The translations under genes were made by a program, and so were the position numbers. Positions 27,495 through 35,260 of a DNA stretch of 64,000 bases are shown piece by piece. Position 1 is the stretch's first letter; every line of letters starts with the position of its first letter. This stretch comes from an uncultured Dehalococcoidia bacterium (GTDB lineage Bacteria; Chloroflexota; Dehalococcoidia; Lucifugimonadales; UBA3495): assembly GCA_958296385.1 (NCBI GenBank), contig OY282494.1:343416-407415 (forward strand), written 5' to 3'. Below the pieces are notes generated by a model. It saw only the letters and a program-made list of their open reading frames with translations, did not search any database and had not been told where the DNA came from.

Positions 27495-29920
27495 CTACCG
27501 CTCAAAGTGGTACTCCCCCTCCCAGAGCGGCCCGTCCTCCGTGTACTGCCCGGTTCTGATGGCGGCGATGTCATACCCCGGCAGTTCGCGCTCGGCAACG
27601 CATCGGTCACCACTGAGCACGGCAAAATCGCCGAACCGAAAGTCCAGATTGTCAAAACCGTGCTGTTGGCGAGGTTCCGGCAAGTCATTTACGTCAAGGG
27701 GAACGATATGCAGAAAGAACACGGCATCCGTGTTCGTACATTCCTCACTGGTGTAGATAAGCCGCCGGCCATCCTTGAGATAAACGTTCCAGTCGGATGC
27801 AATTAGCGGGCTGCCGAGGGCTGTTGCCTCATACTGCCTGTCGTAAAGCGCACGGTCATACAGATCAAAACGGTACTCGCCCTCCCAGAGCCGCCCATCA
27901 TCCGTGTACTGCCCGGTTCTGATGGCGGCGATGTCGTACTCCGGCAGTTCCCGCGTGGCAACGCATCGGTCATCGCTGCGTCTGGCAAAATCGGCGAAAC
28001 GAAAGTCCAGATGGTCAAAACCGTACTGTTGGCGGTGTTCCGGCAGGTCATCCGCATCGCGGGGGTCAATATGCAGAAAGATCCAGGCATCCGTGTTTGC
28101 ACATTCCTCACTGGTGTAGATAAGCCGCCGGCCATCCTTGAGATAAACGTTCCAGTCGGATGCGATTAGCGGGCTGCCGAGGGTTGTTGTGACAAACGGA
28201 CCGTTGTAAAGCGCGCGGTCATACAGGAAAATTTGCCGGTTGTCCGGCGTCAGCAGAGCCGGGCCGGGTTCCCGCTCGCGCTCAATGACAAAGTTGGCAA
28301 GGTTCCTGCGTTCGTATGTGATGACGCTGCCGGCGAGGAAGTAAGGCAACGCCCACGGCGCCCCGCCATACAGGTGCCCCTGCGACCACAGCTTGGCTCC
28401 AGCGGGCAGATAAACAATTCCCTCGCCCACTATATCGCGAATAACCTTAAAGTCCTGCATCATCTCGTCCTCTGCTTTGGCCACCTCTGCGCTATGTCCG
28501 ACATTGGCCATTGCAGTGTTGGAAAGGACAAATACCAGCAGGGCGGCCACGGCAAAGATGGAAACGAACTGTGGGCTGGATAACTTGCGCAGGCCCAGCA
28601 GCAGCAAGGCGAATAATACCAGCGGGATGCCGACGTAAAACATCGCCTCAAAATCATGATAGGCCACCGAGTTGCGCAGCGGCAAAGCCCAGCAAAAGCC
28701 CGAAACGGCCAGGGTTGCCAGCAGCATTTTGTGCTTGACCGGAGCGAAAATCAGCCCGATACTGCAAATGACTAACGCCAGTATTCCGACAATCACGCCC
28801 GGATGGTCCCCGGGCATAACTCCGCCCCAATGCTCATAAGTGTGCTCACTCTGATATGTACTTATCAAGAACGGCACTGTCATTCTGCCGATACGGTAGA
28901 ACTGGTTTTCTAGAAATGGCCCCCAAGCCAGATCCTCGGCCCATCTCGTATTAAACTCCGTATCCCCTCCCAGTCGCTCAATTGCCGACTGGACTGATTT
29001 CAGTCGGTGCAGCGGCCTGTCCCCATCCGATGCAAAGTACTCGCCGGCAAAGCTAAAGGACAGTACCGCGACGCCAAAGCACAGCGTAACCACGCCCAGC
29101 GTCACATAACGACTGGACAGCAGCGCCGCCCCGCAGCGCTTGATTTGACCAGCCAAACTCGGGGGGGGGGGGGGGGGGGGGGGGTAATAATGCCAGCGCG
29201 TGCCTTGAACAATTCACTGGCCAGGCCGAGAACGATAAAGGGCAGCAGGAACGCATAGACGTGCCAGCCCAGCAGCAGCGCCAGGCACGACTTGACCAAC
29301 AGCTGCCGGAAGCGGCCCTCCTGCGCGAATACGACCATCCCGTGAAAGGCCAGCATTACGGCGAAAAGGTCAATGGTTACTTCGTTAGAAATCTTGTCGC
29401 TGTAATACAGGATGTAATACGACGAGAACGCCAGCAGCGTTGCGGTCAACGCAATCCAGCCGCTGCCCACCAGCCGGGCCAGGGCCAAATAGGCCAGCAT
29501 TGCGGCGGCGGTAAATAACAGCAGCATCAACACCCGGGCGGCGTAGATTTCCGCTCCGAAGTTATCCCCAAAGGGCAGAATGGCCAGCTTGATTAAGGCA
29601 TAACCGCCTTTCGGAAATCGGTTGTACAGTTCGTAGCGATGGTTTCCGTCCTTATCCAAAGACTGGTAACGAAACACCAGCAGGCCGCGTTGGAAGGAAA
29701 GATTCTCTGCGAAAGCCAGGCTCTGCGACGAGTTCCAGTCATGCAATCCGCTCCGGTAAAAATGCCCCCGGTCGTTGCCGAACATAAACACCGTGGCCAT
29801 CGCCAGCAGCAACAGAACCAGCGGCAGCGCCGCCGGCTGCGTGAAAAACGCCATCCGCCCACGCACCCGCCCCACCGCCAGCGCAGTGTACTGCCGCAGA
29901 TAGTTCTGATTACCAGTCAT
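27495..29920 (-). pseudogene. GT-C-like multi-spanning membrane protein, out of frame at a 24-G tract (phase-OFF copy)
   Basis: From ATG 29920 the frame runs to the poly-C (minus strand) at 29184-29161, gives seven prolines, then shifts and stops at 29102. The rest of the protein continues in another frame down to 27495. Joined, the two parts match the intact paralogue at 30371-32428 along their length. The tract is 24 here, and frame needs a length of 1 modulo 3 (13 in the paralogue), so one added or two lost G would restore it. The first part has GHFYRSGLHDWNSSQ and several helices; the C-terminal soluble domain of about 121 residues is tandemly duplicated (363 bp period). It is either a switched-off phase-variable gene, a true frameshift, or a miscounted homopolymer. 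Confidence 0.75.
29161..29184. repeat. 24-base poly-G tract inside a coding region
   Basis: An uninterrupted run of 24 G lies at the same codon position as the 13-G run of the paralogue. Runs this long are extremely unlikely by chance and are classic slipped-strand mispairing sites. The exact count depends on sequencing accuracy. Confidence 0.95.
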
Positions 29921-29943
29921 AGCGGGATAAGCATACCATCCCC

Positions 29944-29975
29944 CCGGTCATTCTGAGGGCAGCCGGAATCTCGTT
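29944..29975. repeat. Degenerate half copy of the dispersed palindrome
   Basis: The stretch CCGGTCATTCTGAGGGCAGC and following GGAATCTCG matches one arm of the REP-like element with a few changes; the second arm is absent. It adjoins the nuclease remnant at 29978. Confidence 0.6.
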
Positions 29976-29977
29976 AG

Positions 29978-30352
29978 CGCAGCGGCGGCGCTCCCGTCCC
30001 GGTTGTAGGCGATGGCCTGGACAGCATAGTAGTTCAAGGCATCATCGACCTGTTGTACTAGGACGACGACGGCCAGCTGGTCATCCTGGACTACAAAACC
30101 GACGCCGTAAGCTCCGCCCAAGACGTGGCCAAACGGATGGCGCATTACCAATGGCACGGCGCAGCCTACGCCGCCGCCGTAGAACAAGCCACCGGCCAGC
30201 CAGTGCCGGCAGCGCAATTCCTGTTCATAACCCGCGCGGACGTTGCGGACGGTCTCCAACAAATCAACAACTGGCGGCAACTGGCGCAGGAAATGCCCAA
30301 ACTGATTGCTGCTGGGTATCCTCAGCCGGAGACGGCGCCGCGGTCAGAATGA
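29978..30352 (+). pseudogene. C-terminal remnant of an AddA/RecB-type PD-(D/E)XK nuclease
   Basis: The plus frame reads VVQGIIDLLY, then an amber stop at 30059, then DDDGQLVILDYKTDAV and AKRMAHYQWHGAAYAAAVEQ. The G-x-I-D ... D-Y-K-T pattern is the RecB-family nuclease motif found at the C-terminus of AddA helicase-nucleases, where the stop codon position is usually a Glu or Asp (GAG to TAG would suffice). No helicase sequence lies upstream: the frame closes at 29977 next to a half REP element. It is therefore a dead 3' fragment, probably left by a deletion. Confidence 0.65.
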
Positions 30353-30370
30353 CCGGGTTTGTTCCGGCGG

Positions 30371-32428
30371 CTACCGCTCAAAACGGTATTCGCCCTCCCA
30401 GAGCGGCCCATCATCTGTGTACTGCCCGGTTCTGATGGCGGCAATGTCATACCCCGGCAGTTCGCGCACGGCAACGCATCGGCCATCACTGAGCAGGGCA
30501 ACATCGCCGAACCGAAAGTCCAGGTTGTCAAAACCGTACTGTTGGCGGTGTTCCGGCAGGTCATTTACGTCAAAGGGAACGATATGCAGAAAGAATGAGG
30601 CATCCGTGTTCGCACATTCCTCACTGGTGTAGATGAGCCGCCGACCATCCCGGGGATAAACGTTCCAGTCGGATGCGATTATCGGGCTGCCCAGGGTCGC
30701 TGCGTCATACTGCCCGTCGTAAAGCGCGCGGTCGTACAGGAAAACCCGCCGGTTGTCCGGCGTCAGCAGGGCCGGGCCGGGCTCGTACTGGCGCTCAATG
30801 ACAAAGTTGGCGAGGTTCCTGTGTTCGTATGTGATGACGCTGCCGGCGAGGAAGTAAGAGAACGCCCACGGCGCGCCGCTGTACTGGTGAAATTGGTTCC
30901 CCCACCCAATGCCTTCAAATGGAATATAAACAATGCCATCGCCCACCACATCGCGAATAACCTTAAAGTCTTGCATCATCTCATCCTCTGCTTTCGCCAC
31001 CTCTACACTATGTCCAATGTTGGCCATTTCAGCGTTGGAAAGAACGAATACCAGCAGGGCGCCCACGGCAAAGATGGAAACGAACTGTGGGCTGGATAAC
31101 TTGCGCAGGCCCAGCAGCAGCAAGGCGAACAATACCAGCGGTATCCCGACGTAAAACATCGCCTCAAAATCATGAAAGGTAACCGAGTTGCGCAGCGGCA
31201 AAGCCCAGCAAAAGCCCGAAACCACCAGGGTTGCCAGCAGCATTTTGTGCTTGACCGGAGCGTAAATCAGCCCGATACCGCAAATGACTAACGCCAGTAT
31301 TCCCACAATCACGCCCGGATAGTCGCCGGGCATAGCTCCGCCCCAATGCTCATAGGTGTATGTACTATCATACGTACTTATCAGGAACGGTATAGTCATT
31401 CTGCCGATGCGGTAGAGCTGGTTTTCCAGAAATGGCCCCCAGGTCAGCTCCTCGGCGTGGCTCGTATTAAACTCCGTATCCCCTCCCAGACGGTAAGTTG
31501 CCGACACGACTGACGGCAGTTCGCCCAGCGGCGCTTCGCCACCCAGCGCGATGTACTCGCTGCTCAGGTTGGCAGCCAATAGCGCGACGCCAAAGCCCAG
31601 CGTAACCACGCCCAGCGTGGCATAACGATTGGACAGCAGGGCCGCCCCGCAACGCTTGATTTGAGCCGTCAAACTCGGGGGGGGGGGGGTAGAAATGCCG
31701 GCGCGGGCTTTGAACAGTTCACCGGCCAGGCCAAAAATAATAAAGGGCAGCAGGAACGCATAAACGTGCCAGCCCAGCAGCAGCGCCAGGCACGACTTGA
31801 CCAGCAGCTGCCGAAAGCGGCCCTCTTGTGCGAAAACGACCATCCCGTGAAAGGCCAGCATAACGGCGAACAGGTCGGTCGTTCCCTCATTGCTAATCGA
31901 GTCTGCGTAGTACAGGATGTAATACGACGAGAACGCCAGCAGCGTTGCCGTCAGTGCAATCCAGCCGCTGCCTACCAGCCGGGCCAGCGACAGATAGGCC
32001 AGCGTTGCGGCGCCGGTAAGCAACAGTAGCATCAACATCCGGGCGGCGTAGATTGCCGCTCCGAAGTCGTCTCCAAAGGGCAGAATGGCCAGCTTGATTA
32101 GAACATAGCCGCCTTTCGGAAATCGGTTGTACAGGTCGGAATAGTAACGGTTGCCCTCCCAATCCACCGATTGGTACTGGAACCCTGCGAAATAATGCCG
32201 GGGAGAAAGATTCTCCGCAAGCGTCAGGTTCTTTGACGAATCCCACTCGTGCAGCCCGTCCCTGTAAAAATGCCCCCGGTCGTTGCCGAACATAAATACC
32301 GTGGACGTCGCCAGCAGCAGCAGGATGAGCGGCAGCGCCGCCGGCTGCGTGAAAAACGCCATCCGGTCGCGCAGCCACCTCACCGCCGGCGCAGCATACC
32401 GCAGTAAATAGTTCTCCCTATACGTCAT
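30371..32428 (-). CDS. GT-C-like multi-spanning membrane protein with an in-frame 13-G tract (phase-ON copy)
   Basis: The 685-residue protein begins at ATG 32428, a start chosen by alignment to the paralogue (MTYRENYL against MTGNQNYL). About ten hydrophobic helices can be seen, with an early extracytoplasmic loop GHFYRDGLHEWDSSKNL and FPKGGYVLIKLAILPFGDDFG, reminiscent of PMT/ArnT-like GT-C glycosyltransferases that use polyprenyl-phosphate sugars. The C-terminal third (from about residue 520) is a soluble domain with TSEECANTDASFFLHIVPFD and a Cys pair. Residues about 247-250 are prolines coded by the homopolymer. A polyprenyl synthase gene lies immediately upstream on the same strand. The glycosyltransferase call is moderate; the membrane topology is clear. 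Confidence 0.65.
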   Translation of the reverse strand: MTYRENYLLRYAAPAVRWLRDRMAFFTQPAALPLILLLLATSTVFMFGNDRGHFYRDGLHEWDSSKNLTLAENLSPRHYFAGFQYQSVDWEGNRYYSDLYNRFPKGGYVLIKLAILPFGDDFGAAIYAARMLMLLLLTGAATLAYLSLARLVGSGWIALTATLLAFSSYYILYYADSISNEGTTDLFAVMLAFHGMVVFAQEGRFRQLLVKSCLALLLGWHVYAFLLPFIIFGLAGELFKARAGISTPPPPSLTAQIKRCGAALLSNRYATLGVVTLGFGVALLAANLSSEYIALGGEAPLGELPSVVSATYRLGGDTEFNTSHAEELTWGPFLENQLYRIGRMTIPFLISTYDSTYTYEHWGGAMPGDYPGVIVGILALVICGIGLIYAPVKHKMLLATLVVSGFCWALPLRNSVTFHDFEAMFYVGIPLVLFALLLLGLRKLSSPQFVSIFAVGALLVFVLSNAEMANIGHSVEVAKAEDEMMQDFKVIRDVVGDGIVYIPFEGIGWGNQFHQYSGAPWAFSYFLAGSVITYEHRNLANFVIERQYEPGPALLTPDNRRVFLYDRALYDGQYDAATLGSPIIASDWNVYPRDGRRLIYTSEECANTDASFFLHIVPFDVNDLPEHRQQYGFDNLDFRFGDVALLSDGRCVAVRELPGYDIAAIRTGQYTDDGPLWEGEYRFER
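31677..31689. repeat. 13-base poly-G tract inside a coding region
   Basis: The run codes for PPP(P) on the minus strand and keeps the frame of the gene at 30371-32428. Loss or gain of one base would truncate the protein shortly after the tract, as in the paralogue. Confidence 0.95.
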
Positions 32429-33475: not shown

Positions 33476-35161
33476 TCAGGCCGGAACACCCAGCCGGCCC
33501 GATTCCTGCTCGGCAACCTCAGTGTCCAGCTTGGTGTACAGCGCCGCCGGATTCCTCAGCGGCCCGCCCGGCCGGATGGCGTCAAACAAGGCGTCCGCAT
33601 CCCAGGATTCGTCGGATGCGCTGCCGTCAAACCCCAAAAATTCGTGCAGCTTCTGGCTGCTGAACGGCAGATACGGCGCCAGTAGCACTTTCAGGCAGTT
33701 GATAGCCTTGATAGCCGTCGTGAGCGAGCAGGCCGCGTCCGCCCGGTTCTCGCGGATGGCCAGCCAGGGGGCCCGGGTGTCCAGATAGCGGTTGGTTTCC
33801 TGCGCCAGACTGAAAGCCTGGGTGATGCCGGCCCGGAACCGGGTATGCGCCAGGCTGTTATCCACGCCGGCCATGGCCTCCCGCGCCGTGTCCAGCAACG
33901 CCTGTTCCGCCTCTCCGGGCGCGGCGGCGTCGGGGGGTATCGTGCCGTCAAAGTTGCGGTAGGTGAAACGCAGCACGCGGTTGACCAGGTTGCCGTAGGT
34001 TGCCACCAGCTCGTCGTTGTTGCGCCGCACGAACTCCGCCCAGCTGAAATCGGTATCCCCGGTCTCCGGCATATTGATGGACAGCAGGTAGCGCAGCGGG
34101 TCCGGGTCGTAGCGGTCCAGGTAGTCGGGAACCCACACCGCCCAATCCTGGCTGGTGGAGAACTTGCGGCTTTCCAGGCTGAGAAACTCGTTGGCCGGCA
34201 CGTCGTAAGGCAGGTTCAGCCCCCCGTAGCCCATCAGCATCGCCGGCCAGATGATGCTGTGAAAGGGGATGTTGTCCTTGCCGATGAAATAGTAGGAGCG
34301 GGTGTTGGCGTCTTTCCAGAACGATTCCCACTCGCTGCCGTCGCCGTTGCGCTGCGCCCACTCGATGGCCGCCGACAGGTAGCCGATGACCGCCTCAAAC
34401 CAGACGTAGATGCGCTTGCCCTCGTAGCCGTCCAGCGGCAGCGGCACGCCCCAGGTCAAGTCGCGGGTAATCGCCCGGTCTTTCAGCCCGCCGTGCAGAA
34501 ACCCCCGCGTGGAATTAGCCACGTTGGGCCGCCAGTGTTCGTACTGCGCCATCCATTCCAGCAGCGGGTCCTGAAAGGCCGACAGCCGCAGAAAGAAATG
34601 CTCGGAATCCCGAAACTCCGGCGTCTCGCCGCAGATGCTGCACCGGGGATTTACCAGATCGATGGGGTCAAGGGTATGCCCGCAGCTGTCGCACTGGTCG
34701 CCCCGGGCCCGCGCGTTGGCGCAGTGCGGGCAGGTTCCCTCAACGTAGCGGTCGGGCAGAAACCGGACGCAGCCGGCGCAGTAGGCCAGCAGCATCGTAT
34801 CCGGGTAGATATAGCCGGCCTCCAGCAGGCGCGTAAAGAAATCCTGCACCACCCGCTGGTGATTGTCGGTGTGCGTCGTGGTGAACAGGTCAAAGGTGAT
34901 GCCCAGCCGTTCCCACGTATCCAGAAACAGGGCGTGATACCGCTCCAGCACCACCTGCGGCTCCACCTTTTCCTGGTCGGCCCGGATGGTAATGGGCGTG
35001 CCGTGAGCGTCCGACCCGGACACCATCAGCACCTCGTTGCCTTTCATCCGGTGATAACGCGCAAATATATCCGCCGCCAGGTAACAGCCGGCGATGTGGC
35101 CCATGTGGAGCGGCCCGTTAGCGTAAGGCCAGGCAACCCCAATGAAAATCCGTTCCGACAA
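33476..35161 (-). CDS. metG: Methionyl-tRNA synthetase
   Basis: The start is set at TTG 35161 ([20 protein letters not shown]) because GAGGAG lies eight bases upstream; a start further up would add residues unlike the family. The HIGH-type motif is HMGH and the KMSKS-type motif is KFSTS (in [16 protein letters not shown]). A four-cysteine zinc knuckle region ([23 protein letters not shown]) is present, double-type. It charges tRNA-Met. It has 561 residues and lacks the C-terminal tRNA-binding EMAP-like domain found in longer forms. It heads a minus-strand unit with the prenyl synthase. Confidence 0.95.
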
Positions 35162-35260
35162 TTCAACGCTCCTCAAACCCACAGCCAAGCGGCAAGTGCC
35201 CGTAATTCTAGCACACCTGCCCATCATACCGAACGCCCCCGTTGTCACTCTGAGCGCCCA

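Follow-up and report, generated by a model that had tools for sequence, protein, structure and literature searches.

Long poly-G and poly-C contingency loci are known in Campylobacter, Neisseria, and Helicobacter, and phase variation by homopolymer is known mainly from host-adapted pathogens. Parts of one published account describe, in general terms, phase variation of surface genes (PMC3711429). Here, we describe two poly-G runs in a 64-kb stretch of DNA (hereafter, the window) from an uncultured Dehalococcoidia bacterium of the phylum Chloroflexota (contig OY282494.1). They lie in two tandem genes encoding membrane proteins with a predicted glycosyltransferase C (GT-C) fold and are part of a genome-wide set of such tracts, for which slipped-strand phase variation of the cell-surface repertoire is very probably the best explanation. 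A few word searches of the open-access literature found no report of homopolymer phase variation in Chloroflexota. A sponge origin, guessed at for the record series, was set aside; the one paper listed under the accession prefix is a genome note on an insect. The mechanism is a known one; novelty lies in the lineage in which it is seen, in its extent and architecture, in the flank that tracts share, and in a tract-bearing cluster found across phyla. As in the Campylobacter, Neisseria, and Helicobacter loci, long G/C homopolymers occur in surface and glycan genes, the frame is set by length modulo 3, and in-frame and out-of-frame states are mixed across the genome. Unlike in those loci, the bearer is a member of the Chloroflexota with MutS and MutL, its own runs reach 27, tracts also lie in the middle of membrane proteins and at 3′ ends, there is a shared flanking DNA motif, and a tract-bearing cluster extends across phyla.

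The original prediction, of paired poly-G runs at the same codon position of two paralogues, was borne out. The window contains only two G/C runs of at least 8, namely G24 (29161–29184, plus strand) and G13 (31677–31689, plus strand), both uninterrupted; under a first-order Markov model of the window, 6.4 runs of at least 8 would be expected, 0.017 of at least 13, and 4e-8 of at least 24, so that their length, like the run-length distribution reported below, is far beyond chance. Both runs are immediately preceded by CAAACTC (29154–29160 and 31670–31676, plus strand) and followed by TA, and both occupy the same codon position of tandem minus-strand paralogues that are 78% identical in amino acids over the 250 codons before the run and 79% over the 433 after it. 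Copy 2 (30371–32428, minus strand) is in frame across its run and open from the ATG at 32428 to 30371, that is, for 685 codons (704 if counted from an upstream TTG); C13 on its coding strand encodes TPPPP, in a loop between predicted helices 220–243 and 253–265. The 5′ frame of copy 1 (29102–29920, minus strand; 272 aa) ends 18 codons past G24, and the remainder, which matches the paralogue (27495–29156, minus strand; 553 aa), is open in a different frame. In both copies, as had been predicted, the reading frame requires a length of 1 modulo 3, which places 13 in frame and 24 out. The claim that the 24-G copy is ‘OFF’ agrees with the frame as assembled, but a length taken from a single consensus may err by at least one base, and the ‘OFF’ state is less certain than that this is a long tract.

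The fold of the window protein was modeled with AlphaFold2 from an alignment of 17 sequences (the protein itself and 16 homologues; mean predicted local distance difference test score 80, predicted template modeling score 0.77). Foldseek returned 20 PDB matches at E ≤0.001 with template modeling (TM) scores of about 0.3–0.4. Of these, one is an entry for a translocon and the other 19 are, by title, oligosaccharyltransferases (STT3, AglB, PglB), DPY19, EmbC, or ArnT. In VIA-align, ArnT (5f15) ranked top (Z 21.8, 428 aligned, root-mean-square deviation 4.5, residues ~28–572), with AglB, ALG12, and Pmt4 within 1.5 Z of it. The model thus assigns the protein a GT-C fold, as had been guessed from sequence, although none of the 17 family members matches a Pfam family at E 0.01, the PMT and PMT_2 cut-off included. 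Compared with the ArnT, PMT, and STT3/PglB glycosyltransferases, the window protein is alike in its fold over residues ~28–572 and in an acidic residue (D/E), candidate catalytic, at position 50 in 16 of the 17 members (alignment judged by eye); it differs in showing 7–13% identity in structural alignment, with the low TM-scores and lack of a Pfam match just mentioned, and in an extra C-terminal domain of ~120 residues. Two other tract genes, at L034 and L051, do reach the Pfam PMT cut-off. A search of the A1 profile against PDB sequences gave a sole weak match, to an RND transporter, which we treated as chance. A polyprenyl synthetase gene adjoins the GT-C pair; by adjacency only, it may be linked to a polyprenyl-phosphate-sugar substrate, as had been suggested.

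The ~120-residue C-terminal domain is repeated in many long open reading frames (ORFs) of this genome and of seven relatives, at times several per ORF. Copy 1 has two of these domains at its end: an additional stretch there (27498–27863, minus strand; G000:370913–371278) resembles the domain and matches residues 564–685 of copy 2 with 84% identity. Such repetition is possibly a second, recombination-based source of variation.

The two-gene pair stood, but its genome-wide extent had been missed in the original prediction. The genome consists of one contig of 3,298,084 bases, in which, counting G-runs on either strand, there are 29 of at least 9: eight of 9–10 and 21 of 12–27, the latter forming a second population. 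Regions retrieved from four genomes, selected for their tracts, likewise show a bimodal distribution of lengths (73 runs of 7, eight of 8, eight of 9, three of 10, and 71 of at least 11, 69 of them distinct). About 17 of the 21 tracts touch surface-type genes, several of these being classed as such only from a leader, a signal peptide, or membrane character. Five tracts are associated with GT-C-like genes (both window genes, L034, L051, and L036, the last by a weak TIGR03663 match below cut-off) and two with an unnamed membrane family (L041, L048). A GT2 gene (L044) and a sulfotransferase gene (L032) have a run at their 3′ ends, and a GT4 gene (L032) begins 44 bases past a run. Six tracts lie in genes whose secreted products share a leader and signal peptide (L035, L043, L045, L046, L049, L052; GLUG is over cut-off in L049 and weak in L035), and one goes with a secreted leucine-rich protein (L047). 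The six leader genes start ~14–23 codons before the run and have their signal peptide behind it. In two genomes together, three of nine such genes continue in the frame of their leader and six do not, and the rule that run length sets the frame of a long ORF holds for the GT-C and the secreted classes alike. Among the 46 other genes of the window, a weak control, none of the tract-gene classes appears in the 25 of 73 Pfam families listed. For the secreted class, we also considered that poly-G might serve as a Shine-Dalgarno sequence for an ATG behind it; against this reading, a leader with GGAGG and ATG precedes the tract in five of the six such genes of this genome and in all three of G060, a relative of the same genus. 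A promoter-spacer role was considered for the tract at L033, which precedes a glycerate kinase gene and has TATAAT behind it.

Runs of at least 11 occur in 36 of 60 genomes (the present one included). Some draft genomes of many contigs have poly-G clusters, often at contig ends and artefact-like (e.g. G041, G178), and co-occurrence was tested in genomes of no more than 10 contigs, 12 in all: the eight with homologues of the window gene have 10–25 runs and the four without have 0–2 (Fisher p 0.002), an association that lifestyle or method may confound. Drafts with many runs and no homologue were set aside (e.g. G003 with 23, G005 with 34, G035 with 51, G019 with 57, and G041 with 36); for some, such as G041, artefact was judged by contig position, and some of the runs may be real. 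In a wider sample of the phylum, 38 of 151 genomes (again with the present one) have a run of at least 13 and 113 have none, so that the expectation that such runs would be unusual for Chloroflexota holds for the phylum, less so for this order.

Individual tracts were examined in G060 (18 of 18), G062 (14 of 14), G045 (19 of 19), G040 (8 of 10), G015 (15 of 20), G025 (15 of 25), G049 (18 of 20), and G061 (27 of 42), and none in G057. The comparison of orthologues, named beforehand as capable of refuting the prediction, gave a divided answer. At the window site, G060 has no run; the homologue in G025 (genus g13) has C18 at exactly the same codon, with the same frame requirement and out of frame, and that in G045, of another family, has G15 at the N-terminus instead. 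The gene family therefore carries runs at two different sites. One paralogue of the window gene in its own genome has C8 at the site. The PMT-like family of L051 has seven tracts in five genomes, one of them of another family (n = 13, 14, 16, 18, 18, 18, and 15), and a single one of the seven is in frame. Runs at the same site thus vary in length among homologues, in a comparison between species. The classes of tract genes in G060 overlap those found here (GLUG, leucine-rich repeat, PMT-like) and extend to a trypsin-like protein that stands beside a run.

Behind the tract, the ratio of nonsynonymous to synonymous substitution rates (dN/dS) is 0.30–0.46 in six of six comparisons, including three in which neither copy is in frame; for the 3′ part of copy 1 against copy 2 it is ~0.46. 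These values are below 1, and the part downstream of an out-of-frame run therefore appears still constrained, perhaps somewhat less so than the part before it. All eight genomes tested, whether or not they have many tracts, contain MutS1 and MutL matches over cut-off, and loss of mismatch repair as the cause of the runs was rejected. Constraint behind the tracts together with the presence of these two proteins makes neutral expansion in a mutator unlikely.

Phase variation of a membrane glycosyltransferase-like protein, as originally proposed, is the reading best supported by the conserved sites, differing lengths, constraint, and fold. Slipped-strand mispairing would alter a run by one or more G, and the change in length would bring the second half of the GT-C-type membrane glycosyltransferase into or out of frame. 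The enzyme would thereby be switched on or off in a cell and its progeny, in a way both heritable and reversible. The window pair would be part of the 21-tract set, acting mostly on the cell surface through glycan-transfer enzymes whose genes have an internal or terminal tract, and through GLUG-like or leucine-rich secreted proteins with a tract just before the signal peptide. Differing mixtures of open and closed genes would yield sub-populations with different surfaces, a diversity plausibly directed against phages or used in interaction with hosts or neighbours. Slippage in vivo, expression, the sugar donor and acceptor, and this purpose are what we infer; the tract positions, the frames, and the conserved sites with their differing lengths are direct observations, as are the constraint and the modeled fold.

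Several observations weigh against slipped-strand phase variation. Neither homologue in G060 nor several paralogues in the same genome have a run at the window site, and the variation in length is seen between species, not within one. The lengths of long G-runs in one consensus may be wrong. Four of the 21 tracts are without a convincing surface role (L031, L033, L038, and L043:15721), and in relatives some tract neighbours are not surface genes: a pyridoxal phosphate enzyme in G060 and a GSDH/cytochrome c protein in G040. At the 3′ ends of the GT2 and sulfotransferase genes, the effect of a frame change is uncertain, as is the influence of intergenic tracts on a reading frame. Three of the six leader genes are broken again past the run (L045, L049, and L052, after 238, 70, and 378 codons), and some out-of-frame leader genes may have decayed. 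Finally, dN/dS before the tract (0.21–0.38) is lower than behind it in all six comparisons, a difference to be expected from relaxed constraint or from a less conserved domain.

Those last two points bear on the alternative that the out-of-frame copies are pseudogenes decaying after neutral homopolymer expansion, which the renewed breaks and somewhat raised dN/dS would suit, as would two paralogues of the window gene in its own genome that were matched with an internal stop. Set against these are the dN/dS values behind the tracts themselves, the long open stretches of out-of-frame copies (554 codons in the window, 577 at L051, 843 at L047, and 2010 at L043), the presence of mismatch repair genes, and tracts at the same site in several species, and we give very little credence to general decay. 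The constraint behind out-of-frame runs could also be accounted for, with no change in DNA, by programmed recoding, in which RNA polymerase or the ribosome would slip on the G-run and every tract would yield a fixed fraction of full-length product; sites conserved over genera and a shared flank would fit such a signal. Yet lengths differ among homologues and states are mixed, the gene classes are those of contingency loci, and runs of 20–27 G seem far longer than recoding requires, all of which leaves it improbable. Homopolymer length is a weak point of sequencing, and the drafts with poly-G clusters at contig ends could suggest that the runs are artefacts of sequencing or assembly, whether poly-G calls or errors in length. 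The window genome, however, is a single 3.3-Mb contig whose runs occur on both strands with homology continuing on either side, separate species have runs at the same sites, and the flanks are non-random. For the existence of the tracts, artefact is largely refuted and scarcely credible; exact lengths remain uncertain.

If slipped-strand phase variation is indeed at work, an uncultured lineage of Chloroflexota would have a whole repertoire of such genes, with sites kept over genera and, in one gene, over families. For such communities, random switching of the surface would then be part of normal life; existing reads would allow the pressure exerted on them by phages or hosts to be tested, and surface genes found frameshifted in genomes of this kind should not simply be classed as errors or pseudogenes.

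The flanks of the tracts were compared on the G strand, using motif features chosen after the flanks had been viewed. To remove redundancy, flanks alike by 60% were dropped (69 reduced to 45) or those alike by 50% (69 reduced to 31); a separate flank listing omits tracts with identical 20-base flanks and holds 20, not 21, for the window genome. C directly precedes 28 of 31 non-redundant long runs and 54% of 6,639 runs of 4–7; AA[AG][GC]TC precedes 9 of the 31 and 5 of the 6,639; and a T-rich block at −19 to −15 is found at 14 of the 31 and at 6% of short runs. For two off-site controls, p was 0.33 and 0.05. The motif is found in both orientations relative to the gene: at L036 and L046 the coding strand carries the G-run, and in the window, at L034, and at L051 the opposite strand does. 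Part of the motif may be dictated by codons in the GT-C genes, whose tract-less homologues also have AGTTTG at this place. In its place, G025 has AGAGTC, without an exact match, and none of G061, G062, and G040 shares the motif. Other relatives have a second recurrent flank, close to AGAACATNNGTAC. A bolder proposal is that the tracts are a defined DNA element (T-rich block, eight bases, AA[AG][GC]TC, G-run, YA), which a dedicated factor of these bacteria would place or maintain in unrelated genes and in either orientation. With tract-bearing polysaccharide clusters crossing phyla, the element would constitute an exchangeable surface switch shared by a community; we regard this as unlikely, if less so than the rival explanations above.

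The GT2 gene with a 3′ tract (n = 14) clusters with genes for a GT4 protein and for one that is Wzy_C-like (E 2.9e-7, narrowly under the Pfam cut-off). This cluster (L044:5115–10746) is collinear, with insertions, with one in G061 (L158:5057–10277), at 69–76% DNA identity and with the tract included (n = 17). G061 is titled Pseudomonadales, and the 16S rRNA of this genome is 86.4% identical to that of Methylomagnum and 84.5% to that of Halomonas (best plasmid-record rows), and 74.7% to that of the window genome; a mislabelled record was therefore rejected, its 16S being nearest to gammaproteobacteria. Between the two genomes the cluster genes are about as alike as their 16S, and horizontal transfer of the tract-bearing cluster between phyla is, from these identities, therefore likely. 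G061 has 42 runs, several of them apparently just behind an ATG (flanks judged by eye).

The metG gene of the window (33476–35197) is 80% identical to that of G060 and 31% to that of G061, matching the distances of these genomes. Genes for Uma2-family putative endonucleases adjoin secreted genes or tracts at L035, L038, L043, L046, and L049, some in two to three copies; three that were tested have a Pfam match and the rest were assigned by a similar N-terminus, and three control genes of the window match Uma2 too. At L037:4361 and L037:6009, short G-runs (8 and 9) immediately precede a sequence that we take to resemble CRISPR (clustered regularly interspaced short palindromic repeats) repeats. 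The C10/G10 runs at L033:5956 and L040:5974 lack the tract flank motif, and each adjoins a copy of one dispersed sequence, TCATTCTGAGCGCAGCGAAGA.

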